This document shows, piece by piece, positions 49,501 through 62,039 of a stretch of 64,000 nt of DNA. The notes under the pieces are model-generated. The model made no database searches, was not told where the DNA came from, and saw only the letters and a list, made by a program, of their open reading frames with translations. Source of the stretch: Rhabdophis nuchalis (taxonomy: Eukaryota; Chordata; Lepidosauria; Squamata; Natricidae); NCBI GenBank assembly GCA_039707465.1, contig CM077648.1, forward strand, positions 77,252,119-77,316,118, written 5' to 3'. Numbering within the stretch: the stretch's first letter is position 1; each line of letters opens with the position of its first letter. A program made the translations under genes and the position numbers.

Positions 49501-52500
49501 TTTTAAATTTACTTTCTAAAAAATAACTTTTCCTACTGGGGAGAAGTGACTGATCATACCTAGGCCTCATATATTTCACTCAACATAGTTTTTCTTTGAT
49601 TTTTTACAATTAAAGTTACTGTGAAATATCTGAGTAAAAATTATATTTTTGCAGTGCTTCATTTAAAAAAATAGAATAATTAATATTTAATATTGTTTGT
49701 AGGAATTTCGTCAGAAGGTCATGCTAGGAACACCATTCCTAGTTATTTGGCTGGTTGGATTTATAGCAGATCTTGATATTGATTCTTGGCTAATCAAAGG
49801 ACTAATGTATGGTGGTGTTTGGGCTATGGTTCAGTTTCTTTCCAAGTAGGTACCCTCAAAACTTGATTTGTTTATTATGTAATATACTGTCAAATACATT
49901 AAGATGCTAGTTTCATTCTTTCTTTATACATTAATATGAAGCACAGATAATGAAACATGGAAAATATTAAATGTCTTCTATAAGGAAATGTGCTGTTATG
50001 TTCTTATATCCTAACGTCTTCATATTTGCTCATGTTAAATGCTACAAGTGGCATTCATAATGTAGCTTTCAGTGGGAGCTTTACCAGTTCAATCAAGGGG
50101 TGGAAATGTTACAGGCAGGGCACCAGCGCATTCTTTGACGGCTTCACTGCAGGAGGCAGACCCATGAGGTAACTCTGCGGCTTCTGCCTCTTGCCGGCTC
50201 GTCAGCCTACCAGCTCCGCTTGTATCATGGAGGGCTCCAGACCAGCACCTTCGCCTTTCAGCCACTACCCCAGGCACCAGCAATTTGAGGCCACCGCCAT
50301 GCTTGACCCTAGAACTGCTGCCACTGCATCGCCATCGTCAGCCCCCAACGTTCCATGGACCTCGCATTTGCCGCCAGCTGCTTTTGCCGGTGTAGGAATG
50401 CTGCAGCCGCTTGCCGCCAACGTTCAGAGAGGCCTCACTTCCCTGCCTGGCCCCAAGAGGCTCGTATTGCCTCAGTGGCCATTTTGTTTGGCAGCAAAAC
50501 TTGCGGTGGCCATCTTGGGGCATTAACATTTTGTAAGTACAGGCTATGGCCTCGGTTCCTAGCCAGGATCCCCCTGTGCCCTCAGCCTCTCCTAAGTCTC
50601 CAAGCCCCATAGCAGGCCTGTCTGGCACCAGGGCCTCTAAGAGAAAGGCAGTCCCAGAGACATCTCCCACCAGGCACCCTGCCAAGTCTCCAAAATCGAA
50701 CCCTACACACAAGACCTCATCTGGGGAAGCTAATAAGACCACCCAAGGAAGGCCAAGGAGAAATCCAAGCACATGGTGTCCCCTCACCCTTTCCAGTCTC
50801 AAAGGGTCACTGAGACTAGTCCCCCAGTTGAATTGTCATCAGATTCTGAGGAGGAATTGTCACCTGCTGCTTCCCTTATTCAACCTGAGGACGCTAGGGG
50901 CCTGGGGGAGCTAAACCTCAGTGAGGAGGGGTTTGGGGATGATAGGAGTCTTACTCCTGAACCAGACCTCTTGTCTCAAGACTCTGGGAGCCTTCCATTC
51001 TCGTGTCACCCCTGTACCCTGGATGTTGCAACCATTCTTTCAGATGCCATTGAACGGGGCATGCAGCAGGTCTCCAACATAAATCATCTTCCCATTCTAC
51101 TCCACGCAGGACTTCCTCTGGTTCCAGCAGGCATCACAGAGATAGAGTTCCGCATCTTCATCACGTGTGGTTCTTGGCTCGTCCACCCAGCCATCAGTGT
51201 TTGGAGAGGAGGAGGGGTGGCCTCTATTTCCACCTACCTTTGTGGGCTTCTTTAAATCTGCTGTTTTTCGCTCTCTCCTCTTTAACGCTAAGAAGATAGG
51301 GGGTATCCCGGCTCCCAGGTCATCCCAGGGAGCTGATCCTGACAAGACAGACACCATGGACCCCCCTCTTCCCCCAACTCAAGGTGGAGAAGGATGTGAT
51401 ATCCTCACCCAAGCTATTCCTTGATGAGGTCCAGAACCAGTGGGTATCTCCAGGTACAGGCCCTCTTCCAAATACCCTGGACAAACATCTCTACAATGTG
51501 GGACCAGAGCTCTCCAAGGCGCTCAAGGTACCTTCTATTGATCTCCCAGTGGTGAGTCTGTCTTCCCCCAATGCGGCTTCTGCTGCCTCTGAGGATGCAC
51601 TTTGTCCTGAGGACAAGAGGCTTGAGCAAACGCTCGTTAAAGAGCATCAAGTCTCGGCATGTGCCATCCGTGCTTCAACCTCGGCCTCATTCTTCAGCAG
51701 GGCCGCTCTCCTTTGGTTGAGGCAGCTCCAGGAGAGAATATCCCCCAGAGATTCCAGTGTTCGCAGAGACATCAATAAATTGAAAGCAATCTTAGAGTAT
51801 ACAGCAGATGTGGCCCACTTTGCGTCTAAGTCCATTGCATCCTCAATTTCCACGCGCCATCTCCTGTGGCTAAAACATTGGCATGCGGATGCGAGGGCTA
51901 AGTGGAGGCTTGCCTCCTCAGCATATTCCACTAATTTCTTATTCGGCCCTCCATTAGAACCTCTGCTAATCGAATCTAAGGATAAATGGAAAGTCCTTCA
52001 ATCTGCCTCAAAAAAGCCGGAAGCGCGGGCTCAGTCATGTTATCGCAGGCCGCCCTTTCAAGGACAGGACGGGGGTTTTGCAAACTCCCATCCACATCTA
52101 CCGGCCTTCGCAGATCGTTGGGACGACATCACTAATGACACATGGGTCAGGTCCACCTTCAAATTCAGCCTATACCTGGACCTGCTCTCCAGTCCCCCAA
52201 ACTACTTTGTCATGTGCCTGGTCTCCAGGGACCTTCTCGAGTGCCACCTAGTGGAGCAGGCTATTCAGCACCTGCTCCACATTCGGGCCATTCAACCTGT
52301 GCCTCCAGGCCAGGAAGGACAAGGGTTTTACTCTTGTCTCTTTATCGTGCCAAAATCTTCAGGGGACTGGAGAGCGATCCTCAACTTCAAATTTCTCAAC
52401 CATTCCATCAGATACAGGATATTCAAAATGTACTCTCTCCTGTCCATCTTGGAGAATGTTCGCAAAAATGACCTCCTCACCTCAGTGGACCTTACGGAGG

Positions 52501-55500
52501 CTTTTCTCCATGTCCCCATCCACAAGAATCACAGAAGGTTCCTGCGGTTTGTTTATGTGGGCAACCATTTTCAATACAGGGTCCTCCCCTTCGGGCTGTC
52601 ATCTGCCCCAAGGGTATTCACCAAACTGCTAGCAGTAGTAGCGGCCCACCTTCGAGCCAGACCCATACGGATCTTCTGCTGTCTGGACAACATATTGTTG
52701 CTGTCCAAATCGCACAATCGTGCTCTCCAGGACCTCCACATCACCAGTCCAGTGCTTCAGGACGAGGGCTTCTCCATAAATGGAGACAAGAATCATCTAG
52801 TGCCCACCTCCCATCTTGTACACCTGGGAGTCCTGATAGATTCTGTCCAAGGGAGGATTTTTCTCTCTCTGGATGGCAACTCAGCCTCTGGGAGCTGTCC
52901 AACACAGTGAAGAGCAAGCAACAGGTTCCACTGATCCAACTGTCTCAATTACTGGGGAAGATGGTTTCGTGTGGAGACGTGCCCATCATTTGGTGGACAC
53001 GTCTCCCATGACTGATGTCAGCCTGAGTGGGTGGGGTTTTCACCTCAACTCTCAGGTGGCCTAGGGTCTGTAATCCCATTCCAACCAAACCCATAGCACA
53101 AATTGGCTGGAATTGAGGGCAATCCATCTCGTCCTCCTTCACTTTCAGTCCTCAGTGTGCAACACCCACATACTGATTCTCACAGACAATACGACCGCGA
53201 AAGCGCATGTCAGTCGCCAAGGGGGGACGAGGGTCATCTCCCTCACAGAGCCAGCCTTTCACCTGGGACTTTGGGCAGAAACCAACCTGCTCTCCCTCTG
53301 CGCAGAACATATTTCAGGTACAGAGAATACACGGGCAGACTCGCAAGCTGATCAACCCAGCGGAACGGAGCCTGAACTGTCGCATCTTCACGCAGCTGAC
53401 CAGAAGGTACGGAGTTCCACTACTAGACCTCTTTTCCACACAGTCCAACAACCAGCTGTCAAGGTATTTCACACGTTTCACACCAGGGTCAGAAGGGACA
53501 GACGCACTCAGGTGCAGATCCCCCCCCCCCCCCCCCGGGGCTCCTATATGCCTTCCCTCCCTTCCCACTGATCCAGAGGGACATACGCAAGATGTTAGAG
53601 GAGGAGACGGAACTTCTACTCCTTGTCCCCCACTGGCTGCACTGGCCATGGTTCGCGGACTTGGTGAACTTATCAGTGGGCCCATCATGGCGACTCCCCA
53701 TGTCAAAATCACTTCTCCATCAGGGGTCAATCCAGAGATCAATCCATCACTCTGACCTTCAATGGTTGCAGCTAACCGCCTGGAGATTGAGCGGGCAGCC
53801 TTAACAGCTGCAAACTCTCTGACAAGGTTATTCAGACAATCCAGGCGTATCAACGCCCCTCCACTAATAGGATTTAGGATGCCACTTAGCTGACCTTTGT
53901 CACCTGGTGCAATCAACATTGTTCCTTTCAGGGCATCCATCGCCAATGTCCTAGAATTCTTACAACTTGATAAGGGACTCTCACCAAGCATGCTCAGATG
54001 CCATGCCCTCTCTTCAGTCCTCACCCTCCATCCTTCCAAACTGCTCTCCTTGCACCCACCCACACACCGCTTCCTTATGGGTGCATCTAATCTCAGCCCT
54101 CCTGTTACCCATAGATTCCCTACTCCTGCCAAAGTCCTCGACTTTGTCACTGAACCTCACTTTGAACCCTTGAGGTCCATCTCGTTACAACATCTCACAC
54201 TGAAGGTGGCCTTTCTAGTCACTGTCACCTCAGCAAGGCGGGTTTCGGAATTGGCGGCACTTTCCATCAGGGACAATCTGTGCGTGTTTCATTCAGATAG
54301 GGTCGTTCTCCGGCTGGACCCCACATTCATCCCCAAGGTAAACTCAGCCTTCCGTAGATCACAAGAATTGATTCTGCCAAATTTTTGCCCCAATCCAACT
54401 CACAGACTCAAGCGAAAGTGGCATACCCTGGCCGTGCGCCGTGCCCTTAGGGTTTATATCAACAGGACCACTGAATTTAGACGATCTGAGGCCCTTTTTG
54501 TTTCCTTTCACATGACCAATAATGGACTGAAGGCCTCATCTTCAATCATAGGGCTCTGGATCAGATCCTCCATTGCCAAGGCATATCAAGCTCATCACTT
54601 GGCTCCACTATCAAACGTCACAGCTCACTCAACACGCAGTGAGGCAACCTCAGCAGCCTGGGCAACACAGGCCTCTGTAGCGGAAATCTGCAGGGCAACC
54701 ACATGGACTACTCCATTCGTCTGCCACTAAAAGCTAGACAAGTACGCATCAGTGGATGCGGCATTTGGAAGGCGGGTCCTACAACAAGTCCTTCCCACAC
54801 AGGACACCTAGGTCTACACACAGTCCTACCTGTGGACAGGCCAAGTTTTGGTATGTCCCATGCATGGCTGCTTTATCCACCAACTTTGGATAATGGGCAT
54901 TGGTGCTTATCTGATACTCCCTTTCTCAGAACGGTGGAGCCATCCCCACCCTAATGCTTCGTGCGGACCTAATTCCATATGTGGTCAATAGGAGAGATGA
55001 GCATACAATATCAATCACATACAGCACAATAGTCTACTCAACTTCGTCAAAAGCGGGAGGAGCTACCTCAGGTGCTATGACATTATGATTTGTAGACTCA
55101 GTCCTATTGGATACTGACAGAGTTAACCCATGCATGTCTCCACCGTCCTGAGAAAGGGCGTAGCAAGTAAGCACCAACGCCCATTCTCCTCAGTATTCTT
55201 TCTCTTACTTTTTTATTGATCATTTTAGAAAGAGAGAACGTGTTAAATTTTTGTGTATGTGCAAATTACCGTAACATTTGTAAGCTTTACTGGACAAATG
55301 TTTAAAAATTCATCCAGATGGTTGCTGGTGTTGATATATTTGCTGGACAAATTAATCATAACACTGTTAATTCCTAGCATCAGTCATGGTAGATTCCAGT
55401 TTTGAAATTGGCTTAATTGATACATCATGTGAAGATGAACAGGCTGAACAGATGCAATTTCTGAATCAATCACTTGTGAACCTGGCAAGCATTTATCAAA

Positions 55501-55909
55501 TTTTATGTGTATACACACACACTGAAACTATCTTTATATATATAAAGAGGTGTCATCCCACCTACCAGACATCTAGAAACCAGCACTGACCAGCAGATGA
55601 GCCCCACCCTCCACCCAAGCCGTTGAAATTCAAAATAAGGAGAAACATACAAATGAGACCATTTGCATCAATATACTAGTCATGATGCAGCTGCACAGCC
55701 AATCAACACACTCACAACAATAGTCAGCACTCCACCACCCCCACCAAGATTTTAAAAAGGGCCATGCCTTCACAGTCACAGTCACAGACCAAAGCCTGAC
55801 AAGTGAGATCTTGTCGCAATGTTGCAATAACATTTCCATGCCTTATACACGGGAAAATACCCGAATAAACCAAAACCTACCTACCTACCTACCTACCTAC
55901 CTACATACA

Positions 55910-55945
<36 letters not shown>

Positions 55946-56110
55946 TATCTGATGAGAGCTAATAAGCTCGAAATAGATCCATCCTGGTCTCTCTCTAATT
56001 TAATTTATTGATCAACTCATAAAACTAACACACACACACACACATATATATATATGTGTGTGTGTGTTAGTTTTATGAATTGTGAAACAATTACCTATAT
56101 ATATATAGGT

Positions 56111-56181
<71 letters not shown>

Positions 56182-58154
56182 ATATTATCACAGCTCCTGT
56201 TCAGAGGTCCCTTTAAGGGGAGGAGACTTAACGTCATCCCTCTCTGCCCTTCGACTCAACCTAGAGATCATCCAGACAGAGAACCAAATAGATTACTGCT
56301 GTGTGACATTTTTTAGATATGTGTTAGATTTTTAAGGGCTGAAAATAAAGAGACCAGGATGGATCCATTTCAGGCTTATTAGCCTTCTTCAGCTGGCCAT
56401 ACTCCTTCTACTGGGATTTGAACCGGTGCTTTCCAGCATTTGAGGCAAGCCTCTCTATGCCTTGAGCTATCCGGTATCCCTGATACATCAGCCAATTTAC
56501 AGGACTCTTAAAGGAGAGAATATTATCACAGCCTCAAATGCTGGAGAGCACCGGTTCAAATCCCAGTAGAAGGAGTATGGCCAGCTGAAGAAGGCTAATA
56601 AGCCTGAAATGGATCCATCCTGGTCTCTTTATTTTCAGCCCTTAAAAATCTAACATATATATATATATATATATTTGTTTTCGTAGGTTTTCACGGGTAT
56701 AGGTATGTAGATATATATATGTTAGATTTATAGAGGGAAACAGCATGTCTCCTCCCTTAATTGGGGCCCTTACAGGAAGTTGTGGAAACAATTATCTATA
56801 CTAAATACTCCTGGATTAGCTGATGAAACAGGGTAGAACCGATTAGGCTGGAGTGCTAGGCTTCTGCCTCTGATTCATTACAGCCCCGGTTCGAATCCCA
56901 GTGGGGTGTGGCCAACTGATGAGAGTTAATAAGCTCGAAATAGATCTATCTTGGTCTCTCAAATTTAAATTTATTGATCAGCTAATAAAAACTAACATAT
57001 ATATGTGTGTGTGTGTGTGTGTGTGTTTTCGTAGATTTTCACGGGTGTAGGTATGCTGGTATTGCTGGGTTCGGGGATTTTCCCGTGTATAAGGCATAGA
57101 AATGTTATTGCAACGTTTCGACAAGATCTCACTTGTCATCATCAGGCAGGCTTCTGTCTGTGACTGTGATTGCAGAGGCATCGCCCCTCTTTAAATCTTG
57201 GGGGGGGGGTGGAGTGCTGACTATTGTTGTGAGTGGGTTAATTGGCTGTGCAGCTGCATCATGACTGGTAGATTGATGCTGATTGGTCTCATTTGTATGT
57301 TTCTCCTTGTTTTGAATTTCAACGGCTTGGGTGGAGGGTAGGGCTCGTCTGCTGGTCAATGCTGGCTTCCAGATGTCTGGTAGGCGGGAGGTATCATCAC
57401 GTTTGTTCATGCTGTTAGATTGTTTCTCTATTTCAATGGCTTCTCTGATTATTCTCCTGTTCAGTTGTTCAGCCTTGGAGATCATTTTAGTTCCTTGAAA
57501 GTCAATGTCATGTCCTGTAGTTTTGAAATGCTGATAAAGAGATGAGGTATTAAGTTGATTTTTTAATGCATTTTTATGCTCTGCGATACGTGCACTTATC
57601 CTTCTGTTGGTTTGTCCTATATAAGTGGCAGGGCAGATTTTACATGGAATTTTGTAGACCCCTTGGCTTTCTAGCTGGATCTTGTCTTTGGGATTCCTTA
57701 GGATATTGGTTATTTTTTGGTCGGTGTTGAAGGCTGTCTTGATGTTGTGCTTGTGGAGAATTTTGCTGATTTTGTCTGTGGTACCTTTAATGTATGGGAT
57801 GAGGGCAATGCCATTTTCCTGTTCTTTGTCTTGGTTCCTGGGGGGTGTCTCTTTTTGGATTAGTTTGGTGATTGTTTTTCTTCTGAATCCGTTGGATATT
57901 AATGTATTTGTGAGGAAGTGTAATTCGGTTTTCAGGTGGTCTTTGTCAGCTAGGCGTTTGGTTCTGTGTATGAGGGTTTTGGCTACAGAGTTTATCTGTG
58001 CAGGGTGGTGATGGGATTGTGCATTTAGGTAGCGGTTGGTGTGTGTTTTTTTCCGGTAGATGGTGTGTCCCAGGGAGCCATTAGGTTTTTTGTAGATTAG
58101 GACGTCTAGAAAAGGGAGTTGGTTGTTGGCTTCTATTTCCATATATATGTAATT

Positions 58155-58212
<58 letters not shown>

Positions 58213-61200
58213 AAGATAGTTTCAGTGTGTGTGTATGTGTGTGTATAAAATTTGATAAATGCTTGCCAGGTTCACAACTGATTGTGAATATATATATATT
58301 CATTCCAGTGAAATGATCTTTATTTTAGTCTACATGACCTTTTAAACAGATTCAACTATTTTGCAGCAAGCAAGAATATGGAGCATGTATCTTCTTCTTG
58401 TGCCATATCCATCATTGGACTTAGCAATCATATTGGCGATCCTATTTTTGTCAATAGCTGCACGAAAAAGTGCTGCTGAGTTTTGTCCAAACCACTCCTT
58501 TAGATTTTGAAGCCACAATGTTCTTCTTCTGCCTGGACCTCGTTTGCCTTCGATTTTTCCCTAGAGGATTAAGTGAAGTATGCCGTATTTTTCTGGGTGT
58601 TGCATCACATGTCCAAAATATTCTAACTTTTGGTTTTTTATGGTTTTGATAATTTCCCTTGGCTTTGCCAGGCAGCTTATCACCACCTCATTTCCGATTT
58701 TGTCAACCCATCTTATAAGTAACAGTTGTCTGTAATTCCACATTTCAAATGCTTCTAGTCTCTTCAAGTAGCTTTCTGTCAGAGACCAACTCTCTACTCT
58801 GTAGAGAAGGATAGAAAAGATATAACATTTGACAAGCCTAATTTTCAATCTTAATGTAACATGTATACTAATCAATTATGTGATGTTTCTCTGTCCTACA
58901 GATCATTTTTTGATCACTCCATGCATAGTGCTCTGCCTCTTGGAATCTACCTAGCAACAAAATTTTGGATGTATGTGACGTGGTTTTTCTGGTTTTGGAA
59001 TGATATCCTTTCTCTTGATCTCAGCAATTATGCCAGAAAGACTGTTTAAGTGTGTAGAAGGAAATAGTGCAGATTTTCCTTGATAATATACAACAGAAGT
59101 AAGAATGTTTTAAAAAAACTATAAAATTATTGGTTTAAATTATTCCAGGCGCAACATTAAGCGACATTTACCTGGCAAAATGAAATTGGTCCAAAGTGGT
59201 TTATGAAATTTTTGGACCTCTCCTTTTAGTATCTTCCTTTTCCTAGATTCCATAGGTTTTCTCCCCTTTTCACTGATTATCACATTTGGTAGAGGTTTTT
59301 AGGGGAAATTTGAGTAAGAACTGAAAACAGTAGAGCACTGGCAACCCAATTTTATATGGGAATTTTTTCCAGCTTCCCATCTTCCCTTCTTAGGGAAAGT
59401 GATAAAAAAGGTGGTTCCTTGGCAGGTTCAGAGGATCCAGATTATCTAGATCAGGAGTGCACAATGCTTGGATCATGGACTTGTACTGGTGCACAGCCTG
59501 TTGGGAACTGGACTGTGCAAGTGGCAAGCAAGTGTGTGAAGTTTCATTGCACATGAATGGGAGCTAGGTTATACACATGAAACCATCTCGCCTGCTGCTG
59601 CTGCTCCATGGAGCCAGAAAAGTTGTGGACCACTGATCTAGACCTCTTCCAGTCATGATTCAGGTCTGGTTATGAGACAGTTTCCTGTATCAGGAACGCT
59701 CTTTGGTATATACAGTAGCAGTAAATTAAATTAATTTAAAAACTCTGCTTTAAAGGACACTGTGATTTTTTAAAATAAAAATTACATTAATTTCAACATT
59801 TACATTCCTTAATGACTGTACATCTCAGTTTTCTCTTTATCCACCTTCCATTTATTGCTAATAGTGTTGCACTTTTCTATAATTTTGGGAAGTCCTGGAA
59901 ATCAGATCCAGGAATAATTAAAGCCACAGAAGAACAAAAGAAAAAGGTAACAAGATTTTTATTGTTACTATAATAACAATAACTAATAACACTATAAATA
60001 GTGAAATGTAGTTTCTTGATTGAATAGTTCCTTTCTTGATTGAAGGTTCTTGGTTGAATATAGTATAATTTCAGCCTTCTATCACAAGTTTGATGTCTTC
60101 TCAGTTTCCTCCCATCCCTTGTCTTGGAGATTATGGGCCGAGTTCTTTAACCTTTATCTTTTTATCTCTAAATGCATTCGTAGTAGTACTTGATTATTGT
60201 CTCTTACCACATTATAAAAGTCCTTTTATATATAAAGTTAAACAACAGCAACATGTTTGTGCTAATATTATGAAGAATTATTAGCAAAGGTCACTGAATC
60301 GACTCACCATGTATAATGTTTGCAGAATTGTTATTTAGGGATTATGTTTCTGATATTAAATGTATTTTACCTGAATATCTGTTCGCTTTCTTGAATATTT
60401 TTATAATGCATTGCCATGATTAATAGCAGTGATTGTAGGTTCCCTGTAGGCGATATGTGTTTGTTTTTGCTCCTGTCCAGTTTGTCACCTTTTATTTCCT
60501 TGTTCTTGTATTTGTTACGTTATTCTATGCCTTTTAATGTTGGTTATATGTGGAATTTCCAAAGATGTTGGATAGAACACAGAAGTTTAATAATAATAAT
60601 ATTCAATACTAATATCAAAGCTAGCAGTAAGTAATAAAAAAAATTGAAATGGTTAAATTTACAGTTTAAAGTCCATAGTGACATCACCCAATATGTTAAA
60701 ATGAATAGTAAATAACCAATTTTTTAGACTTTAAGACAACAGTAATATTGCTCATAATTATGAGATCAACTCTAAAAAATTGTGACCTTATGAACCTTAA
60801 CAATATTGTGTTAAGTTGGAATTTAAATGTTTAAAAGACTCAATAGAATTGCAGACAGTCTTTCTAGTGACTGATGCAAAACATATAGAACTGAATAATA
60901 ACAATCCTTTCATTGGGCTCAATCTAACAACAAACACAGCTGATTAGAATCAATGTTAACATGCTTTAATTGCTTGACATCCAAGCAGCAGAAATTGCAC
61001 AATTTGATTTACTTATCTGGTACTCAGATGGTCTATATCAGGGGTGGGCAAACTTTGCAACTTTTAAGTCTGAAGGACTTCAGCTCCCAGAATTCTCCAG
61101 CTCCCAGAATTCTCCAGCCAGCTTTGCTGGAGAATTCTTCAGCTCTGGGAGCTGAAGTCCTTCAGACTTAAAGTTGCAAAGTTTGCCCACCCCTGGTCTA

Positions 61201-61356
61201 TATGCTAATATGTCTATTTATAAAAATCTACATAGTATGTATAAAGTCAGTTTTTAAAAGATGTAATATGTTTTTTGTTTTATTTTTCTACAGACAATAG
61301 TGGAACTTGCAGAGACCGGAAGCTTGGATCTCAGTATATTCTGCAGTACCTGCTTG
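11899..61356 (+). CDS. ZDHHC17: ZDHHC17 (HIP14) palmitoyltransferase, exons 1-12 of a gene continuing beyond the window
   Basis: The enzyme transfers palmitate from palmitoyl-CoA to cysteines of proteins such as SNAP25, CSP and huntingtin, mainly at Golgi and vesicle membranes. Twelve exons join to 433 in-frame codons: N-terminal tail (1-40), about seven ankyrin repeats (about 41-275), a linker, four hydrophobic segments (about 296-313, 321-336, 347-369, 373-392) and the beginning of the cysteine-rich domain (CSTC near 429). Asn90 and Trp120 here match human Asn100 and Trp130, the residues that hold substrate QP motifs, so the recruiting surface is kept. The DHHC catalytic exon, the last two membrane segments and the stop codon lie beyond 64000. 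The exons are nearly identical to the mammalian protein, while the introns carry many insertions. The open frame across all junctions argues for a working gene. Confidence 0.97.
12487..12598. mobile_element. hAT foldback MITE, 112 bp
   Basis: A near-perfect palindrome from CAGGGGTCTGCAAAG to CTTTGCAGATCCCTG, with the family core GGACTTCAACTCCCAGAATTC. It has no clear 8-bp duplication. It is in intron 1, 525 bp after exon 1. Confidence 0.8.
12599..12964. other. Intron 1, nothing recognised
   Basis: AT-rich intronic sequence with no supported feature. Confidence 0.5.
12973..14031. mobile_element. hAT MITE, sister of 10316-10512, split by an L2 insertion
   Basis: The ends CAGAGGTCAC and GAGACCCCTG are flanked by the 8-bp duplication ACCTAATG (12965-12972 and 14032-14039). 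The MITE halves are 12973-13139 and 13995-14031; together they match the intact copy at 10316-10512. Confidence 0.88.
13140..13994 (+). mobile_element. L2-type LINE 3' fragment inside the MITE
   Basis: An 855-bp 5'-truncated copy. It encodes the C-terminus of an L2 reverse transcriptase ([35 protein letters not shown], then LKTHLFR). The conserved LHWLP reads LH-stop-LP because TGG became TGA at 13506-13508. The 3' end is CGCCCTGAGTCCCGAAAGGG and a GGGCGGTATACAAAT tail. CCAGTGG/CCAGTAG on either side is a short target duplication. Confidence 0.88.
14040..15282. other. Intron 1, nothing recognised
   Basis: AT-rich intronic DNA with no gene. A short CA-rich run at 15245-15283 precedes the Tigger-like element. 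Confidence 0.5.
15283..15529. mobile_element. Pogo/Tigger-like MITE
   Basis: The ends CAGTGGTACCTTGGTACTC and GAGTACCAACGCACTG are inverted repeats, with TA following the right end. On the left the TA has been lost into a CA microsatellite. Internal GAGTACCAA repeats occur several times. Confidence 0.7.
15530..16008. other. Intron 1, nothing recognised
   Basis: AT-rich sequence without a supported feature. Confidence 0.5.
16009..17239. mobile_element. Decayed Tigger-like MITE region with nested hAT element
   Basis: The left end TAGATATTCCTTGACCACAA is the reverse complement of the terminus seen at 37416. A matching right end (AAGCAAGGTCTACCTATAA) lies near 17239. The interior holds the hAT MITE at 16556-16689 and sequence I cannot assign. 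Confidence 0.4.
16556..16689. mobile_element. hAT foldback MITE, 134 bp
   Basis: An almost perfect palindrome with ends CAGGGGTGTCCAAACTTGG and its complement, centred on CCAGCATGCTGG. It has a perfect 8-bp duplication CTCTAAGA (16548-16555 and 16690-16697). It is a young-looking copy of the ACTTCAACTCCCAGAATTC family. Confidence 0.92.
17240..18035. other. Intron 1, nothing recognised
   Basis: AT-rich intronic sequence with no supported gene or repeat. Confidence 0.5.
18040..18470. mobile_element. Decayed Tigger-like MITE
   Basis: It shares blocks with the clearer copy at 37025-37416: TCATGTGACCACATCACTTA, GTCATAAGTGAGC and AACCAAGGACTCTA at the right. Boundaries are approximate. Confidence 0.45.
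18471..19530. other. Intron 1, mostly unassigned
   Basis: No gene. A stretch at about 19070-19200 (AGTCCTCAACTTATGAATAA) looks like part of another Tigger-like MITE. 19400-19450 is an A/T-rich simple run. Confidence 0.45.
19535..19632 (+). mobile_element. CR1 3'-end stub
   Basis: A sense CR1 terminus (GTCTGAAATGGTATAAGG, GGTTGGACTAGAAGACC, CCCTTCCAACTCTGC) that runs into a T-rich tail. It lies tail-to-tail with the L2 copy that follows. Confidence 0.8.
19640..22337 (-). mobile_element. L2-type LINE, 2.7 kb, 5' truncated, frames broken
   Basis: From 22334 downwards: endonuclease part ([21 protein letters not shown]), linker, reverse transcriptase ([56 protein letters not shown], catalytic YADDTQLYI) and the L2 C-terminus ([44 protein letters not shown]). 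These lie in at least four frames, so several indels have accumulated. The 3' end has the GGGCGGGGTATAAATTT tail shared by L2 and its SINEs. It would encode the enzyme for target-primed reverse transcription, but this copy is dead. The G+C content is well above the surrounding intron. Confidence 0.88.
22338..24440. other. Intron 1, AT-rich, possibly a decayed L1-like element
   Basis: No gene. On the minus strand around 23020-22700 a broken frame begins with Met and a polar segment ([18 protein letters not shown]), which could be an old retroposon ORF. I cannot show its family or ends. The rest is unassigned. Confidence 0.3.
24440..24690 (+). mobile_element. Degenerate tRNA-derived SINE
   Basis: A weak B-box-like GGAGTTCAAACTC is followed by ATCATGAAAG and GTCAGTCATTCTCTCTTAGCCC. 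These blocks match the body of the clearer SINE at 46106-46335. Boundaries are approximate. Confidence 0.4.
24821..24917. repeat. (GTAT)n microsatellite
   Basis: About 20 tandem tetranucleotides. The complementary strand gives a long but meaningless open frame. Confidence 0.97.
24918..25656. other. End of intron 1, nothing recognised
   Basis: No feature other than the polypyrimidine and AG before exon 2. Confidence 0.5.
25657..25760 (+). CDS. ZDHHC17: ZDHHC17 exon 2
   Basis: Encodes residues 22-55 plus two bases of Gln56, including [20 protein letters not shown], which leads into the first ankyrin repeat. Acceptor TTTTCAG and donor GTAAGT; exits in phase 2 (CA then G). Confidence 0.96.
25789..25972 (+). 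repeat. Long imperfect hairpin just inside intron 2
   Basis: 25789-25838 pairs with 25924-25972 (about 50 bp, with a handful of mismatches; both begin GTATTTGTTTCAT when read inward). 25872-25888 pairs perfectly with 25907-25923 over 17 bp. A 33-nt unpaired segment separates the two stems on the left, and an 18-nt loop caps the structure. It begins 28 nt after the exon 2 donor. Confidence 0.85.
26466..26820. mobile_element. Pogo/Tigger-like MITE, 355 bp
   Basis: The ends CAGTGGTACCTCGGTTCACG and the inverse (GAACCGAGGTACCACTG) are flanked by TA on both sides. TTCACGAAC repeats occur internally. It was inserted into the 3' UTR of the L1-type element and is therefore younger than it. Confidence 0.88.
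26923..27771 (-). CDS. L1 ORF1-type RNA-binding protein, intact
   Basis: A 282-residue frame. Residues about 1-75 form a coiled coil ([20 protein letters not shown] and on). Residues about 92-170 match the L1 RRM-like domain ([12 protein letters not shown], then [20 protein letters not shown]), and 175-245 match the C-terminal domain ([11 protein letters not shown] to AFLKKHSS). L1 ORF1 proteins trimerise, coat the element RNA and act as nucleic-acid chaperones. The tail is basic (AKRLRSKK). No reverse transcriptase follows, so movement would depend on a partner L1. The uninterrupted frame suggests a fairly recent insertion. Confidence 0.85.
   Translation of the reverse strand: MASKSELAGLEQRMSSLESVLQALVHEIKALREDNNSFKKDLLETRKQVLENTQKTEELEGGLAGGKGELKNVNTEIADLSGHMSRMDFERMLYFLRFQNTSEEPGECLPELMSTILADYLHKPKDEIRGDIDLVYRINSTYARINEVPKEIHIKFVRRSTREGILKAQRGRALIYQQKEVVILKQIPKKIREMRRKYSFLSKKLFDHGTWFKWAMPEGMLVFWDEGRVRIKTVAEAEAFLKKHSSILGEDPGGTEGATAPPAGGQGGEKEDTIAKRLRSKK
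28645..29174. other. Intron 2, nothing recognised
   Basis: Unassigned intronic DNA. Confidence 0.5.
29175..29682. mobile_element. Decayed Tigger-like MITE
   Basis: The left end CAGATAGTCCTCAAGCC and the right end CTCAAGGACTACTTG are inverted copies of the family terminus. The interior includes a GC-richer block at 29360-29510. Confidence 0.55.
29683..30358. other. Intron 2 end, nothing recognised
   Basis: No supported feature. ACCCCCGGCAATCAGC near 30035 lies in a short SINE-like stretch, but this is too weak to call. Confidence 0.4.
30359..30481 (+). CDS. ZDHHC17: ZDHHC17 exon 3
   Basis: Encodes residues 57-96, ankyrin repeats 1-2, with the LLHWAA block. Asn90, equivalent to the substrate-binding Asn100 of the human protein, lies here. 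Acceptor CTTCAAG, donor GTAAGT, phase 2 exit. The Cys-Cys after DR replaces the Cys-Arg usual in mammals. Confidence 0.96.
30482..31952. other. Intron 3, nothing recognised
   Basis: AT-rich. A TTAG/TTCA simple run occurs at 30627-30690. No gene. Confidence 0.5.
31970..34099 (-). mobile_element. L1-type retroposon of about 2.1 kb without visible ORF2
   Basis: A direct repeat ATTAGTCATTGTTTTTT flanks it (31953-31969 and 34100-34116), and a T run at the left gives the poly(A) tail of a minus-strand insertion. The 5' part (34099-33700) is GC-richer and resembles a LINE 5' UTR. The longest open stretch (32921-32703) is only 72 residues, charged and not recognisable. The family is different from, or much older than, the element at 26275-28629. 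Confidence 0.7.
34332..34409 (+). CDS. ZDHHC17: ZDHHC17 exon 4
   Basis: Encodes residues 98-122 of the second and third ankyrin repeats ([18 protein letters not shown], then TPLHWAT). Trp120 corresponds to the key substrate-pocket Trp130. Acceptor TTCTACAG; the donor is a weaker GTGGGA; phase 2 exit inside Arg123. Confidence 0.96.
34829..34889. mobile_element. Half of a hAT foldback MITE
   Basis: The arm CTGGGAGCTGAAGTCC to GGTTGGAGACCCCTG matches the right half of the copies at 46714 and 61771. The left arm is missing. Confidence 0.6.
34895..35230. mobile_element. Tigger-like MITE, partial
   Basis: It shares GCAGCATCCCCATAGCCATG, CAGTTGCACTGTCCCAGGGTC-like and AACAGAAATTTTGGATT blocks with the copy at 37025-37416. 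The left terminus is missing. Confidence 0.6.
35231..36144. other. Intron 4 end, nothing recognised
   Basis: AT-rich, no gene. Confidence 0.5.
36145..36289 (+). CDS. ZDHHC17: ZDHHC17 exon 5
   Basis: Encodes residues 124-171, ankyrin repeats 3-4, with [20 protein letters not shown]. Acceptor TGTTTTAG, donor GTATGT, phase 0 exit. Confidence 0.97.
36530..37016. mobile_element. Tigger-like MITE relic
   Basis: The right terminus CACAAGGACTACCTG (ending at 37016) matches the family. The interior is diverged (AATGTGGCCACTATTTTGTCC repeated in variant form). It sits head to tail with the next copy. Confidence 0.45.
37025..37416. mobile_element. Tigger-like MITE, best copy in the window
   Basis: It runs from CAGGTATTCCTTTACTTATA to TAAGTTGAGGATTACCTG, inverted termini of about 18 bp. 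Internal landmarks are CATCCCCATGGTCATGTGAT, CAGTGTCCCAGGGTCACGTG and repeats of TTCACTTAACAA. There are related copies in introns 1, 2, 4, 5 and 7. Confidence 0.75.
37621..37685 (+). CDS. ZDHHC17: ZDHHC17 exon 6
   Basis: Encodes residues 172-192 ([18 protein letters not shown] region), spanning ankyrin repeats 4 and 5. Acceptor TTTCATCAG, donor GTAAAT, phase 2 exit inside Ser193. Confidence 0.96.
37686..38612. other. Intron 6, nothing recognised
   Basis: No supported feature apart from splice sites. Confidence 0.5.
38613..38743. mobile_element. hAT-like MITE, about 130 bp
   Basis: It has CAGGTGTCAAACTC and GCCAGTTTAACACTG ends, with a direct repeat AGTCTAGTGC on both sides (38603-38612 and 38744-38753). 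Confidence 0.7.
38754..39370. other. Intron 6 end, nothing recognised
   Basis: No supported feature. Confidence 0.5.
39371..39533 (+). CDS. ZDHHC17: ZDHHC17 exon 7
   Basis: Encodes residues 194-247, ankyrin repeats 5-6, with [20 protein letters not shown]. Acceptor ATTTTCCAG, donor GTAAGT, phase 0 exit. It is followed by a 9.7-kb intron. Confidence 0.97.
39534..42829. other. Intron 7, first third, mostly unassigned
   Basis: No gene. At about 41480-41545 a short stretch (ATCATGGAAGCCTACTGGAT, GGCTCAGTCATTGTCAGCC) matches the body of the tRNA-derived SINE at 46106. A repeated AATGAAATTAAATG-like motif at 41590-41740 may be retroposon tail sequence. Confidence 0.4.
42830..44010 (-). mobile_element. 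RTE/BovB-type LINE relic, interrupted by (TTTA)n
   Basis: Read on the minus strand, fragments keep the order expected for an RTE reverse transcriptase: [15 protein letters not shown] just before the catalytic region, then a BovB-like C-terminal segment further left. Many stops and frameshifts are present. The TTTA array at 43447-43527 splits the two parts. Confidence 0.6.
43447..43527. repeat. (TTTA)n microsatellite
   Basis: About 20 perfect TTTA units. Confidence 0.97.
44208..44339. mobile_element. hAT-like MITE, 132 bp
   Basis: The ends CAGGAGTGTCAAACCC and GCGAGTTTGACATCCCTG are inverted. The imperfect 8-bp flanks are ATGTACTG and TTGTACCG (6 of 8 match). Confidence 0.72.
44540..45065. 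mobile_element. Tigger-like MITE relic
   Basis: It begins AGTAGTCTTTAAGTTACAAG, like the family terminus, and has diverged interior blocks. The right end near 45060 is approximate. Confidence 0.4.
45066..46100. other. Intron 7, nothing recognised
   Basis: AT-rich, no supported feature. Confidence 0.5.
46106..46335 (+). mobile_element. tRNA-derived SINE
   Basis: The A-box-like TTGGCCTAGTGTTTAAAGC and B-box-like CGAATTCAAGTCC head is followed by a conserved body (GCCAATCACTCTCTCAGAC, TAAGGTGGTTGTTATGGG). It ends in an AATAAAGACAGGATACAAAT tail of the LINE-derived type. It is not a tRNA gene because no cloverleaf is preserved. Confidence 0.65.
46336..46705. other. Intron 7, nothing recognised
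   Basis: No supported feature. Confidence 0.5.
46714..46818. mobile_element. hAT foldback MITE, 105 bp
   Basis: A perfect-looking palindrome with CAGGGGTCTCCAACC ends and the core CTTCAGCTCCCAGAATCTGG. It has a perfect 8-bp duplication ATCTACCA (46706-46713 and 46819-46826). Confidence 0.92.
46827..47910. other. Intron 7, nothing recognised
   Basis: No supported feature. The open frames at 47305-47594 have no recognisable domain. Confidence 0.5.
47914..48345. mobile_element. Tigger-like MITE
   Basis: It begins CAGGTAGTCTTTAATTTACA and ends near GTACATCAAGAACTATCTG. It has the family blocks GGTGCTTGACAACTGGCTCA and TTATTTAACCACTGCATTTG. Confidence 0.6.
48612..49010. mobile_element. Long hAT-like MITE, about 400 bp
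   Basis: The ends CAGGGGTGTCAAACTC and AAGTTTGTCACCGCTG are inverted. The interior is GC-rich (GGCCCGCGGGCC) and includes a duplicated segment on the GAGCTTGGGAG theme. GTGTATTG and ATGTATTG lie just outside the two ends. Confidence 0.7.
49281..49406 (+). CDS. ZDHHC17: ZDHHC17 exon 8
   Basis: Encodes residues 248-289, the last ankyrin repeat and the linker to the membrane ([20 protein letters not shown]). Position 250 is Ser-Pro where mammals have Ser-Ala. Acceptor TTTTAATAG, donor GTGAGA, phase 0 exit. Confidence 0.96.
49703..49845 (+). CDS. ZDHHC17: ZDHHC17 exon 9
   Basis: Encodes residues 290-336, containing the first two hydrophobic segments ([14 protein letters not shown], then [14 protein letters not shown]). 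Acceptor TTTGTAG, donor GTAGGT, phase 2 exit; the codon is completed as AAA (Lys337) by the first base of exon 10. Confidence 0.96.
50546..51370 (+). pseudogene. DIRS gag-like region
   Basis: The open stretches 50546-50914 and 50773-51255 overlap in different frames. The first is Ser/Pro/Lys-rich ([18 protein letters not shown]), and the second is acidic ([10 protein letters not shown]). Position and composition fit a DIRS gag-like ORF; no domain is recognisable. Confidence 0.6.
51384..52910 (+). pseudogene. DIRS reverse transcriptase with altered active site
   Basis: A 508-residue frame. The RT blocks are [20 protein letters not shown] (about 315-335), [16 protein letters not shown] (with the first catalytic Asp) and [20 protein letters not shown]. 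The usual YLDD box reads CLDN, so the second Asp is Asn and the enzyme would be inactive. After GRIFLSLDG the frame leaves homology. The N-terminal 200 residues belong to the gag/linker region. Confidence 0.85.
52960..53755 (+). pseudogene. DIRS RNase H and linker, frame-broken
   Basis: The pieces are [15 protein letters not shown] (first frame), [13 protein letters not shown] and [18 protein letters not shown] (second frame), which keep the Asp/Glu/Asp RNase H residues. Then [19 protein letters not shown] and [20 protein letters not shown] appear in further frames, a segment typical of DIRS elements. Confidence 0.75.
53780..54730 (+). pseudogene. DIRS tyrosine recombinase
   Basis: The frame 53897-54730 (277 residues) covers most of the domain. 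[12 protein letters not shown] carries the first catalytic Arg, and [14 protein letters not shown] gives the His-x-x-Arg pair followed by the expected helix. It ends in WTTPFVCH just before the position of the nucleophilic Tyr; the next codon is TAA, so the Tyr is replaced or displaced. In DIRS elements this enzyme inserts a circular cDNA without target duplication. Confidence 0.78.
55465..55550. repeat. Left arm of a 2.8-kb-spaced inverted repeat
   Basis: GTGAACCTGGCAAGCATTTA through ACACTGAAACTATCTTTATA is the reverse complement of 58205-58290, differing mainly in the length of the CA run. The two arms enclose the Penelope/hammerhead cluster. Confidence 0.85.
55552..55883 (+). mobile_element. 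Penelope-like element 3' fragment (+)
   Basis: It begins within the coding end (CCTACCAGACATCTAGAAAC, matching the RLPDIWKPA part of the minus copy) and runs to the 3' UTR blocks AGTGAGATCTTGTCGCAATG and CCTTATACACGGGAAAATAC. It is a truncated partner of 57018-58160 in the opposite orientation. Confidence 0.82.
55877..55948. repeat. (CTAC)n(CATA)n(TA)n microsatellite
   Basis: It joins the Penelope 3' fragment to the hammerhead core that follows. Confidence 0.95.
55949..55990 (+). ncRNA. Hammerhead ribozyme motif A, partial
   Basis: CTGATGA, stem II GAGC/GCTC with loop TAATAA, GAAA, then ATAG-AT-CCAT-C and CTGGTC. Stem III has one A-C mismatch. The 5' strand of stem I is absent, replaced by the TA microsatellite, so this copy should not fold fully by itself. 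Confidence 0.72.
56127..56173. repeat. (GT)n microsatellite
   Basis: About 23 GT units, preceded by TA-rich sequence. Confidence 0.96.
56352..56398 (-). ncRNA. Hammerhead ribozyme motif B
   Basis: On the minus strand: GGCCAG, CTGAAGA, AGGC-TAATAA-GCCT, GAAA, TGG-AT-CCA-TC, CTGGTC. All invariant core bases are present (position 7 may be any base). Stem I is 6 bp with one G-U, stem II 4 bp, stem III 4 bp with a 2-nt loop. The predicted cut is after the C preceding CTGGTC. Confidence 0.88.
56395..56480 (-). ncRNA. tRNA-like sequence upstream of hammerhead B
   Basis: On the minus strand it runs GGGATACCGGATAGCTCAAG (A-box-like TAGCTCAAGG) to CACCGGTTCAAATCCC (B box GGTTCAAATCC) and ends TATGGCCA, where CCA overlaps stem I of the ribozyme. 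The D and T stems are imperfect, so this is a tRNA-derived polymerase III promoter head, not a functional tRNA gene. Confidence 0.72.
56579..56625 (+). ncRNA. Hammerhead ribozyme motif C
   Basis: This is the same sequence as motif B on the + strand: core CTGAAGA at 56585-56591, stem II AGGC/GCCT, GAAA at 56606-56609, predicted cut after 56619, stem I GGCCAG/CTGGTC. The stem III segment ATGGATCCAT is self-complementary. The upstream tRNA-like head is cut off at GCCTC (56531) but keeps the B box. Confidence 0.88.
56655..56715 (-). mobile_element. Penelope 3'-terminal stub
   Basis: After a TA microsatellite comes TTTTCGTAGGTTTTCACGGG, which is the reverse complement of the end of the Penelope 3' UTR seen at 57018-57060. 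Confidence 0.75.
56831..56914 (+). ncRNA. tRNA-like sequence upstream of hammerhead D
   Basis: It has a perfect B box GGTTCGAATCC at 56888-56898, a weak A box (TTAGGCTGGAGTGC) and a CCCC/GGGG pair around the B box. It ends TGTGGCCA at the ribozyme. It aligns in order with the tRNA-like head of motif B, although the two sequences differ a good deal. Confidence 0.7.
56910..56956 (+). ncRNA. Hammerhead ribozyme motif D
   Basis: GGCCAA, CTGATGA (56916-56922), stem II GAGT/GCTC (one U-G pair) with loop TAATAA, GAAA (56937-56940), stem III ATAG-AT-CTAT, cut after C 56950, then TTGGTC closing stem I. Compared with B and C, bases change on both sides of all three stems while pairing is kept. ATAGATCTAT is again self-complementary. 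Confidence 0.9.
57018..58160 (-). mobile_element. Penelope-like element, 5' truncated (-)
   Basis: It covers the end of the reverse transcriptase, the GIY-YIG endonuclease and the 3' UTR (CAAGATCTCACTTGTCATC region; CCCGTGTATAAGGCATAG). The 5' truncation falls in a CA/TA microsatellite at about 58143-58208. It lies opposite to the + fragment at 55552 and antisense to ZDHHC17. Confidence 0.88.
57129..58142 (-). CDS. Penelope polyprotein C-terminus with GIY-YIG endonuclease, truncated
   Basis: A 337-residue open frame. Residues 8-45 ([20 protein letters not shown]) are the last conserved block of the Penelope reverse transcriptase. Residues 161-190 hold the endonuclease signature: [10 protein letters not shown] (GIY position), TYIGQTNRR (YIG and catalytic Arg) and EHKNAL. 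The C-terminal tail is polar and Pro-rich. Penelope-like elements pair this nuclease with a telomerase-related reverse transcriptase. The catalytic RT part is missing, so the copy is not autonomous, but the remaining frame is open. Confidence 0.87.
   Translation of the reverse strand: MEIEANNQLPFLDVLIYKKPNGSLGHTIYRKKTHTNRYLNAQSHHHPAQINSVAKTLIHRTKRLADKDHLKTELHFLTNTLISNGFRRKTITKLIQKETPPRNQDKEQENGIALIPYIKGTTDKISKILHKHNIKTAFNTDQKITNILRNPKDKIQLESQGVYKIPCKICPATYIGQTNRRISARIAEHKNALKNQLNTSSLYQHFKTTGHDIDFQGTKMISKAEQLNRRIIREAIEIEKQSNSMNKRDDTSRLPDIWKPALTSRRALPSTQAVEIQNKEKHTNETNQHQSTSHDAAAQPINPLTTIVSTPPPPQDLKRGDASAITVTDRSLPDDDK
58158..58208. repeat. (CA)n microsatellite
   Basis: About 24 CA units between the Penelope truncation point and the inverted-repeat arm. 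Confidence 0.96.
58205..58290. repeat. Right arm of the 2.8-kb-spaced inverted repeat
   Basis: TATAAAGATAGTTTCAGTGT through GCTTGCCAGGTTCACAA is the inverse of 55465-55550. Beyond TGATTG the two sides diverge. Confidence 0.85.
58362..58875 (-). mobile_element. Non-LTR retrotransposon C-terminal fragment, clade uncertain
   Basis: The minus-strand frames read [34 protein letters not shown] and KLEYFGHVM, then, after a stop, [24 protein letters not shown] sequence. This is the region after the reverse transcriptase in RTE-like and related LINEs. It ends 26 bp before exon 10 of ZDHHC17. Confidence 0.68.
58902..59002 (+). CDS. ZDHHC17: ZDHHC17 exon 10, ends at an AT-AC intron
   Basis: Encodes residues 338-370, with the third hydrophobic segment ([17 protein letters not shown]). 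Acceptor CCTACAG. There is no GT at the end of homology; the exon stops after AATG, followed by ATATCCTTT, the U12-type donor. Phase 1 exit: G joins AT of exon 11 to make Asp371. Ignoring the splice, the frame runs on to a stop at 59047-59049. Confidence 0.95.
59003..59821 (+). promoter_or_regulatory. U12-type AT-AC intron 10 splice signals
   Basis: The intron starts ATATCCTTT, a perfect match to the minor-spliceosome AT-AC donor, and ends GTAC. TTCCTTAAT at 59805-59813 fits the U12 branch-site consensus, with the branch A about 10 nt before the acceptor. Joining at these points keeps the frame and gives the conserved [13 protein letters not shown] order. The 819-bp intron also holds a hAT MITE at 59452-59635. 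Confidence 0.93.
59452..59635. mobile_element. hAT-like MITE inside the U12 intron, 184 bp
   Basis: It runs from CAGGAGTGCACAATGC to GTTGTGGACCACTG, with 8-bp flanks ATCTAGAT (59444-59451) and ATCTAGAC (59636-59643). Confidence 0.75.
59822..59946 (+). CDS. ZDHHC17: ZDHHC17 exon 11
   Basis: Completes Asp371 and encodes residues 372-412: the fourth hydrophobic segment ([19 protein letters not shown]), then the cytosolic [19 protein letters not shown] leading to the catalytic domain. The acceptor is AC (U12 type), the donor GTAACA, phase 0 exit. Confidence 0.96.
59947..61038. other. Intron 11, nothing recognised
   Basis: AT-rich intronic sequence without a supported feature. Confidence 0.5.
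61039..61195. mobile_element. hAT foldback MITE, 157 bp
   Basis: The palindromic ends CAGGGGTGGGCAAACTTTGC and the inverse are present. CTCCCAGAATTCTCCAG occurs twice in tandem in the left arm. It has a perfect 8-bp duplication GTCTATAT (61031-61038 and 61196-61203). It ends 98 bp before exon 12. Confidence 0.92.
61294..61356 (+). CDS. ZDHHC17: ZDHHC17 exon 12, start of the cysteine-rich domain
   Basis: Encodes residues 413-433, [14 protein letters not shown] then IFCSTCL, with the first zinc-binding cysteines of the DHHC cysteine-rich domain. Acceptor TTTCTACAG, donor GTAATA, phase 0 exit. The next exon (the DHHC motif) was looked for up to 64000 and is not in the window. Confidence 0.96.
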
Positions 61357-61770
61357 GTAATATACTTTTTCCCTAATACATAAAGACACAACTTACTTGA
61401 ATTCAAACAAAACATTTTAATGTTGAATGTTTTTTAAAATGTATACTTTAGGATTACAAGAGGATATATTCACATAGAATATAAGTCATGTTTTTGTTCA
61501 TTTAGAATTCAGACATATGAAAACCATAAAGAGCGGTATCAGTATTCTTGTTGATATGAAACTTAAAGTAGGATATCAAGGTTCCTCACTGGAGTCTTCA
61601 TACTGATGAAGCTGCAACATCTGAAAAATAGTTCAGGTGACTCTTGTTAGAAATTTGAATTTAAATATATGTAACTTTTTGTAATGAACCATATTAAATT
61701 AGTTAGATAAATTCTGACAGATGGCTCTACCAGAAGTTCAAGATTTTTCAAGACAAAAAATACTCTATAG

Positions 61771-61887
61771 CAGGGGTCTCCAACCTTTGCAACTTTAAGT
61801 CTGAAGGACTTCAGCTCCCGGACTTCAGACTTAAGTCCGGGAGCTGAAGTCCTTCAGACTTAAAGTTGCACAGGTTGGAGACCCCTA
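61771..61887. mobile_element. hAT foldback MITE, 117 bp
   Basis: A palindrome with CAGGGGTCTCCAACC ends (the last base is mutated to A), a core of GGACTTCAGACTTAAGTCC and a perfect 8-bp duplication CTCTATAG (61763-61770 and 61888-61895). Confidence 0.9.
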
Positions 61888-62039
61888 CTCTATAGAGAAA
61901 TCCATATGAAACTACAGGATTAGGGTTAGATTTATTCATTTAGCTTTGAATACTTTTCCTAGTCACTAGGGTTGGAACTAGGACTAGGAAGAAAAAATAA
62001 TATAAGCAACGTTTTAAAAAGGGATTGATTTCTTACCCT

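Follow-up and report, generated by a model that had tools for sequence, protein, structure and literature searches.

A high-copy hammerhead ribozyme repeat of Rhabdophis nuchalis that probably belongs to a tRNA-headed, Penelope-dependent, retrozyme-like element

Results

Hammerhead motifs in the window

The window analysed here is a stretch of 64,000 nucleotides from Rhabdophis nuchalis (GCA_039707465.1, contig CM077648.1, positions 77,252,119 to 77,316,118 of the forward strand), which carries hammerhead motifs within copies of a non-coding repeat, together with 3' parts of Penelope-like elements (Table 1). Sequence inspection and pattern search found all four ribozyme-like motifs, A to D, at the positions where an earlier note on this DNA, made from its letters, had placed them. 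The claim of that note that B, C and D hold the full hammerhead core was borne out by a strict descriptor (CTGANGA, stem II of at least 4 bp, GAAA, stem III of at least 3 bp, base 17 not G, stem I of at least 4 bp), which picked out exactly these three in the 64-kb window; 150 simulated sequences of 64 kb, drawn from a first-order Markov model, contained none. All three are complete type I hammerheads, with CUGANGA/GAAA as their core, an H where the RNA would be cut, three stems and an open stem I. Motif A is truncated: it retains the core, stem II and stem III and, as had been noted, lacks the 5' half of stem I, and its stem III additionally has an A.C mismatch. The bare pattern CTGANGA...GAAA, with 11 matches in the window versus 5.3 expected, is weak evidence for a hammerhead.

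Table 1. Features of the locus, in window positions; units are numbered from the base that follows the predicted cut.
Feature	Position	Strand	Description
Penelope-like element, second copy of 3' part	55556..55888	+	86% identical; 5' of copy A
Copy A	55949..56032	+	5'-truncated, unit 312 to 49, 3' end at (CA)n; = L001:590-673
Copy B	56176..56533	-	second subfamily, slightly more than one unit
Hammerhead motif B	56352-56398	-	strict descriptor; predicted cut between 56358 and 56357
B-box-like sequence of copy B	56414..56424	-	32 nt 5' of ribozyme core
Copy C	56531..56663	+	head-to-head partner of B, arms 98% complementary; 3' end at (TA)n
B-box-like sequence of copy C	56553..56563	+	pattern match
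Hammerhead motif C	56579-56625	+	strict descriptor; predicted cut between 56619 and 56620
Piece matching Penelope 3' end	56677..56707	-	31 bp; downstream of copy C
Copy D	56732..57002	+	first subfamily, unit 129 to 52, 5'-truncated; 3' end (TA)n(TG)n; = L001:1373-1643
B-box-like sequence of copy D	56888..56898	+	GGTTCGAATCC; 28 nt 5' of ribozyme core
Hammerhead motif D	56910-56956	+	strict descriptor; predicted cut between 56950 and 56951
Penelope-like element, 3' part	57025..58157	-	C-terminal coding part with GIY-YIG-like region, 3' UTR

The boundaries of the stems proposed earlier had to be redrawn: a stem II of 5 bp enclosing AATA and a stem I of 6 bp give the better reading. The four motifs had also been counted as separate evidence, which does not hold: B and C, whose 47-nt motifs are identical, lie in the arms of one inverted repeat (133 nt, 98% complementary), so that the independent copies number three (A, D and B/C). 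The earlier note had named the lack of a covariance-model match above threshold as a ground for giving up the hammerhead, and formally this is what was found, as no Rfam family reached its gathering score in the window and none of the hammerhead matches in an Rfam scan of sampled loci did so. The sole hammerhead listed in 55500-57500 was Hammerhead_HH9 on A (15.7 bits against a gathering score of 52, E 2.3). Folding energies of the four single motifs were ordinary compared with shuffles (z from -0.32 to 0.06), and their minimum-energy structures were without stem III. Rfam microRNA matches of 58-71 nt, all below gathering, were set aside as effects of inverted repeats. We judge the missing Rfam match to be outweighed by the genome-wide count and the covariation described below.

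Genome-wide copies and covariation

The genome (1.918 Gb, 348 contigs) was searched with the pattern CTGANGANNNNTAATAANNNNGAAA, in which the stem letters are left free, and with the reversed pattern as control. There were 10,109 matches (4963 and 5146 by strand) versus 2 for the control, and in 93 of the 100 matches listed of these 10,109, which had not been chosen by their likeness to D, all four free positions of stem II were paired. The matches listed put the density of the core pattern at about 3.06 per Mb on the stretch of contig C1 from 1.7 to 34.3 Mb. At such a density the squamate gene intron, in which the earlier note had found the arrangement worth describing, is a place where the element landed incidentally.

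A pattern that fixed only the core and the spacing found 78 instances in the fetched loci and the window, 23 of them distinct. Pairing of stem II, which the search had not asked for, reached at least 4 pairs in 23/23 distinct motifs; stem I had at least 4 pairs in 18/23 and stem III at least 3 in 22/23, with all three thresholds reached by 18/23 and H17 present in every one. For these 23 motifs, which share ancestry, 90.4% of the cells were paired versus 85.5% after shuffling, and the covariation score was 0.294 versus 0.186 (0/500 shuffles as high), with at most 0.118 for a slid partner. Changes on both sides were seen in two pairs of stem I, three of stem II and one of stem III. Two of the five covariation measures were not above the shuffles, namely pairs with both-side changes (6 vs 5.2) and further pair types (15 vs 15.2), and unconstrained RNAalifold preferred another pairing, of the core with stem III bases. 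The selected fold that had been proposed from compensating changes in four motifs thus gains support far beyond those four from the genome-wide count, the 23-motif covariation and the pairing of stem II, and at the level of sequence there appears to be good support for a conserved hammerhead, whose fold as a monomer is weak.

A random sample of 20 stretches of 10 kb from three contigs gave 6 matches, in 3/20 stretches, to a model built from the family. Three intact cores were present in the sample, each within a stretch that BLAST also matched to the unit, and simulations gave 3 in 4 Mb.

The repeat unit and its arrays

The ribozyme lies in a non-coding unit of 338-346 bp that falls into subfamilies. 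The D-type unit of the first subfamily has 346 nt, a GC content of 0.42 and a longest ATG frame of 35 aa; the B-type unit of the second, to which copies B and C belong, has 338 nt, a GC content of 0.44 and a longest ATG frame of 55 aa. Both can be aligned end to end with 250/366 columns identical (68%), and 38/47 in the hammerhead. No coding sequence for a reverse transcriptase-endonuclease (RT-EN) and no long frame was found in the unit, and the Penelope coding part adjoins it instead. Runs of at least four T, which usually stop Pol III, are absent from the sense strand of the D-type unit (L009); the B-type unit has one such run.

Several observations indicate that units are joined head to tail. 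Copy B runs past its own start, since an 18-bp stretch recurs after 338 bp (at 56176 and 56514). Locus L009 holds two head-to-head arrays of 3.0 and 11.2 units with a period of 346, their intact cores being spaced by 344-346 or double that distance. Across the 215 nt that surround the ribozyme, the 10 intact-core units of the longer array have an average similarity of 99.9%, as against 97.7% for comparisons between loci (163 pairs); other multi-unit insertions show 85-99% identity within, by a crude comparison. Among the 100 listed of the 10,109 matches, 6 of 14 same-strand spacings were 336-346 bp. In the fetched loci, 13 insertions are longer than one unit (15 rows, with three rows belonging to a single array), which argues for a circular or multimeric template. 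The arrays could instead have arisen without a circular template, by unequal crossing-over, and crossing-over could likewise have lengthened some of the multi-unit insertions.

Insertion ends

End mapping covered 25 loci and 51 segments of at least 90% identity, two of the boundaries being artefacts of the splitting of a long array. The 3' ends fell at unit 47-56 in 18/51 segments and at 196-205 in 11/51, and the 5' ends were scattered, which speaks against arrays starting exactly at the cut site. The sequence next to the 3' end was (CA)n at unit 49, mostly (TA)n or (TG)n at 52-55, and (TATC)n-like or (TA)n in most cases at 196-197. When the 91 segments were taken together, simple repeat made up the 20 bp past the 3' end in 37/84 and the sequence past the 5' end in 8/84. 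The ends lie in microsatellites, which would mask any target-site duplication.

Neighbouring segments within 120 bp of each other stood head to head in 24 cases and tail to tail in 10 (91 segments), and among the 100 listed of the 10,109 matches, neighbours within 1 kb were head to head in 8 and tail to tail in 2. The pair formed by B and C in the window is one such head-to-head pair. Two traits of Penelope-type insertion, head-to-head inverted copies and an optional tail at the 3' end, are found in this element.

A tRNA-like head

A match to the B-box pattern RGTTCRANNCC lies 27-32 nt 5' of the core in 66/78 motif instances, most of which are related by descent; in the random sample, 400,000 positions contained 10 matches to the pattern. 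A third subfamily is represented in L030 by two copies spaced by 338; here ARAGORN identified a tRNA-like sequence at 436-512 (RF00005, 26.9 bits, below the gathering score of 29) with the hammerhead directly 3' of it, and a second, weaker pair of tRNA-like and hammerhead matches lies at 99-172 and 174-220. A full tRNA-like head was present in 1/11 loci scanned with ARAGORN, and neither an Rfam search of 55500-57500 nor a tRNA scan found a tRNA in the window, so that a plain tRNA-like head in all copies is not supported. We take the head to be tRNA-derived, recognisable in one subfamily and reduced to a B-box-like sequence in others. Such a head may serve as a Pol III promoter. The Sm-alpha and W36 repeats of Schistosoma have a Pol III promoter.

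Neighbouring Penelope-like elements

Copy D and the minus-strand Penelope-like element lie with their 3' ends towards each other, a microsatellite between them. A search with the protein of this element (57129-58157, minus strand) gave 176 relatives with E values of 0.001 or below, led by one from Ahaetulla prasina at 73% identity, and many of them are annotated with PF26215 and reverse-transcriptase domains; the GIY-YIG-like C-terminal part scored 16.6 bits in Pfam, below the cut-off of 22.6. Many beetle and other insect proteins are among the relatives of this lineage, with 45-60% identity, and P0091, a relative from Vipera, shares 64% identity with a Diabrotica protein and 48% with an Anolis one. 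This insect-like kinship would fit either old lineages or horizontal transfer. Searching viral contigs for the Penelope protein gave 10 pattern matches, none confirmed, and exact and degenerate hammerhead core patterns had no match in viral or in prokaryote contigs. A search for solved structures found none.

Penelope 3' pieces occurred in 15/27 loci chosen for the retrozyme, a set biased by that selection, in addition to the window, and in 0/20 random stretches, a sample of only 20. Those within 150 bp on the 3' side of the retrozyme faced it in 13 cases and lay otherwise in 5; on the 5' side (8 cases) the numbers were 5 and 3. The 28 Penelope pieces include 12 that stop at query position 541-549 and 8, one of them the query itself, that extend to the query end at 573-576; this end pattern resembles the optional 30-40 bp tail of Penelope elements.

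The Penelope 3' UTR contains a hammerhead-like stretch of its own (window 57116-57145, minus strand) with CTGATGA, a long stem with one extra base and GAAAC, which looks like a minimal Penelope hammerhead and has copies in L007, L009, L013, L018, L020, L023 and L028. The outer flanks of the nest of Penelope and retrozyme copies, 55467-55543 and 58208-58284, are inverted copies of each other (77 nt, 78%), as if the target had been duplicated in reverse.

Discussion

Taken together, the motif and its covariation, the unit and its arrays, the preferred 3' ends, the head-to-head pairs and the adjacency of Penelope-like elements are best explained if the motifs are the ribozyme of a high-copy, non-autonomous, tRNA-headed and Penelope-dependent retrozyme-like element, a reading to which we assign a probability of roughly 0.7 on the basis of sequence comparison. 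Non-coding repeats of about 150-450 bp with a type I hammerhead, a GC content below 50% and head-to-tail tandem copies characterise retrozymes, and all of this is found here. The earlier note had connected the motifs with Penelope-like elements, and this connection survives indirectly, through adjacency and insertion anatomy; as a part of a Penelope coding element the motif does not qualify, since it sits in a separate non-coding unit. Being separate, non-coding, tandem and in part of the family provided with a tRNA-like head, the ribozyme unit appears retrozyme-like rather than a piece of Penelope.

A Penelope enzyme is the likely helper, given the biochemistry of PAc of Anolis, the arrangement of Penelope copies in a rotifer, and the scars and adjacency described above. 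The PAc protein cuts and extends both strands, with reverse transcription starting inside the RNA, and the PAc RNA has a hammerhead with an AUG at stem II, which cleaved only with the protein present (PMC11167929). In the Penelope elements of a rotifer, according to an account cited from an excerpt, head-to-head is the commonest arrangement and a 31-bp tail is optional (PMC3846280). A shared preference for microsatellites would likewise place Penelope and retrozyme copies together.

Here we propose a scheme in which the unit would comprise a tRNA-derived head, then a minimal type I hammerhead, and a preferred copy end some 50 nt further on. Transcription from the head, or read-through, might give RNA of one or more units, which the hammerhead would cut, probably as a dimer or with the help of a protein, because stem III is weak. 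The RNA could then be ligated to a circle by a host ligase or be left multimeric, a step suggested by the copies that are longer than one unit; circularisation by host ligase has been shown for other retrozymes. Finally, a Penelope-type enzyme would cut both strands of a microsatellite and use the two ends as primers for reverse transcription, which would begin within the RNA where its sequence is similar to the microsatellite, as is suggested by the preferred 3' ends, the head-to-head pairs and the Penelope 3' ends nearby. On this view, three such insertions would stand in the intron beside the Penelope copies of the window. Of the steps of this scheme, we infer cleavage, the RNA circles, transcription by Pol III and the helper enzyme. 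The fullest version of this scheme, a tRNA-headed SINE-retrozyme hybrid in an amniote that has an internal promoter, is transcribed by Pol III, turned into circles by its hammerhead and primed by a Penelope RT-EN from both microsatellite ends, is one that we offer tentatively, with the odds leaning somewhat against it.

The strongest rival is that the unit is the pseudo-LTR (pLTR) of an autonomous Penelope-like element whose frame starts in the hammerhead, the copies being solo or tandem pLTR fragments. This would agree with PAc, whose frame starts at hammerhead stem II and in which tails and internal starts are typical (PMC11167929), and with the excerpted rotifer account, in which pLTRs alone seem sufficient for the Penelope-mediated integration of a host gene (PMC3846280). 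It would also accommodate the longest frame of the D-type unit (L009:2500-2845), which starts, much as a Penelope frame does, at an AUG inside the hammerhead core (unit position 315, 32 nt before the cut) and runs for 35 codons. However, arrays of up to 11.2 units have no coding sequence between them, subfamily B is without an AUG in the hammerhead core, and the full-length Penelope proteins examined do not, as judged by eye, begin with the peptide of the D-type frame. In addition, the Penelope copies of the window end in a microsatellite with the neighbouring unit D in opposite orientation, and in the chosen loci facing 3' ends outnumber direct order by 13 to 5. As a sole explanation, pLTR fragments are rejected in view of the coding-free arrays and the facing orientation, and we regard this rival as unlikely overall.

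That the unit is an ordinary tRNA-derived SINE or a satellite moved by a LINE, with the hammerhead as a passenger, would account for the tRNA-like head, the B box and the high copy number, but not for tandem multi-unit insertions, two preferred 3' ends in microsatellites and head-to-head pairs, traits that to our knowledge LINE-dependent SINEs do not show. Nor would a passenger be expected to keep its hammerhead pairing across subfamilies that are 68% identical overall, and we reject LINE-driven movement on these grounds as very improbable. Chance or decayed look-alikes with no catalytic history, to which the lack of an Rfam gathering match and the weak folding of single motifs might point, are rejected as a negligible prospect in view of the simulations (0 in 150), the genome count (10,109 vs 2) and the pairing of stem II (23/23).

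Compared with known systems, the retrozyme-like element is close to metazoan non-LTR retrozymes, above all to the amphibian ones. Animal retrozymes are described, in an account cited from an excerpt, as tandemly repeated, non-coding sequences of 150-450 bp whose type I hammerheads work better as dimers, those of the axolotl measuring about 330 and 350 bp, and as occurring beside Penelope elements with minimal hammerheads (PMC7229834). With the retrozymes of axolotl and the newt satellite the present units share the type I fold, a weak stem III, tandem non-coding units of near the same size, a GC content below 50%, the lack of LTRs and the presence of Penelope elements in the same genome (PMC7229834, excerpt); the squamate host and the Penelope-type scars set them apart. 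A review, again in excerpt, states that retrozymes seem promoterless, to which the tRNA-like head stands in contrast, names Penelope elements as likely helpers, and reports thousands of dispersed copies of minimal hammerheads in many animal genomes (PMC7761336). Like PAc of Anolis carolinensis, the element has a minimal type I hammerhead, an AUG in the core, preferred downstream ends and a signature of insertion at both strands (PMC11167929), and unlike PAc its unit has no coding region, forms long tandem arrays and carries a tRNA-like head. The Sm-alpha and W36 repeats of Schistosoma, an unrelated host, are likewise short and SINE-like, measure about 335 bp and contain a type I hammerhead (PMC8490949, excerpt). 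Hammerhead_HH9 was the best-scoring hammerhead family for several copies, reaching 30.6 bits (E 6.8e-5) in L018 against a gathering score of 52; HH9 represents conserved single loci thought to be domesticated (PMC6155905, excerpt), in contrast to the thousands of mobile copies found here.

The literature searched contained no squamate retrozyme family and no tRNA-headed retrozyme. Single hammerhead motifs in squamates may well have been counted before, and Cervera and De la Pena 2014 reportedly may list squamate minimal hammerheads. What goes beyond the accounts that we found is the squamate host, the tRNA-like head with a B box 5' of the ribozyme, and the Penelope-type scars.

The enzyme that moves animal retrozymes and their promoterless transcription are open questions in the reviews, as far as the excerpts cited here go. 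More than 10,000 intact cores, some with tRNA-like heads, and scars that can be read as Penelope-type in an amniote make both questions testable. Amniote hammerheads are described, in an excerpted source, as conserved intronic loci that are probably domesticated and stem from retroelements of lower animals (PMC6155905), and the present family offers a possible mobile source for them. If the hybrid reading were true, the enzyme that drives retrozymes would be identified, and the conserved hammerheads in amniote introns could have arisen from such families.

As for the host region, exon-like stretches with splice-like flanks lie on the plus strand at 58901-59010, 59863-59949 and 61294-61360, which we take to belong to a ZDHHC17-type palmitoyltransferase gene; the short peptides of these stretches matched no Pfam family. 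Since copies A, C and D share the strand of the exon-like stretches, a ribozyme cut in the host intron is possible, but idle speculation. Remains of retroelement coding sequence, presumably DIRS-like, are located at 52000-54730 (plus strand) with a tyrosine-recombinase-like frame that scored 13.6 bits for Phage_integrase, below the Pfam cut-off. Two fold-back repeats whose arms appear related by eye, at 61040-61200 and 61770-61890, are probably small mobile elements.
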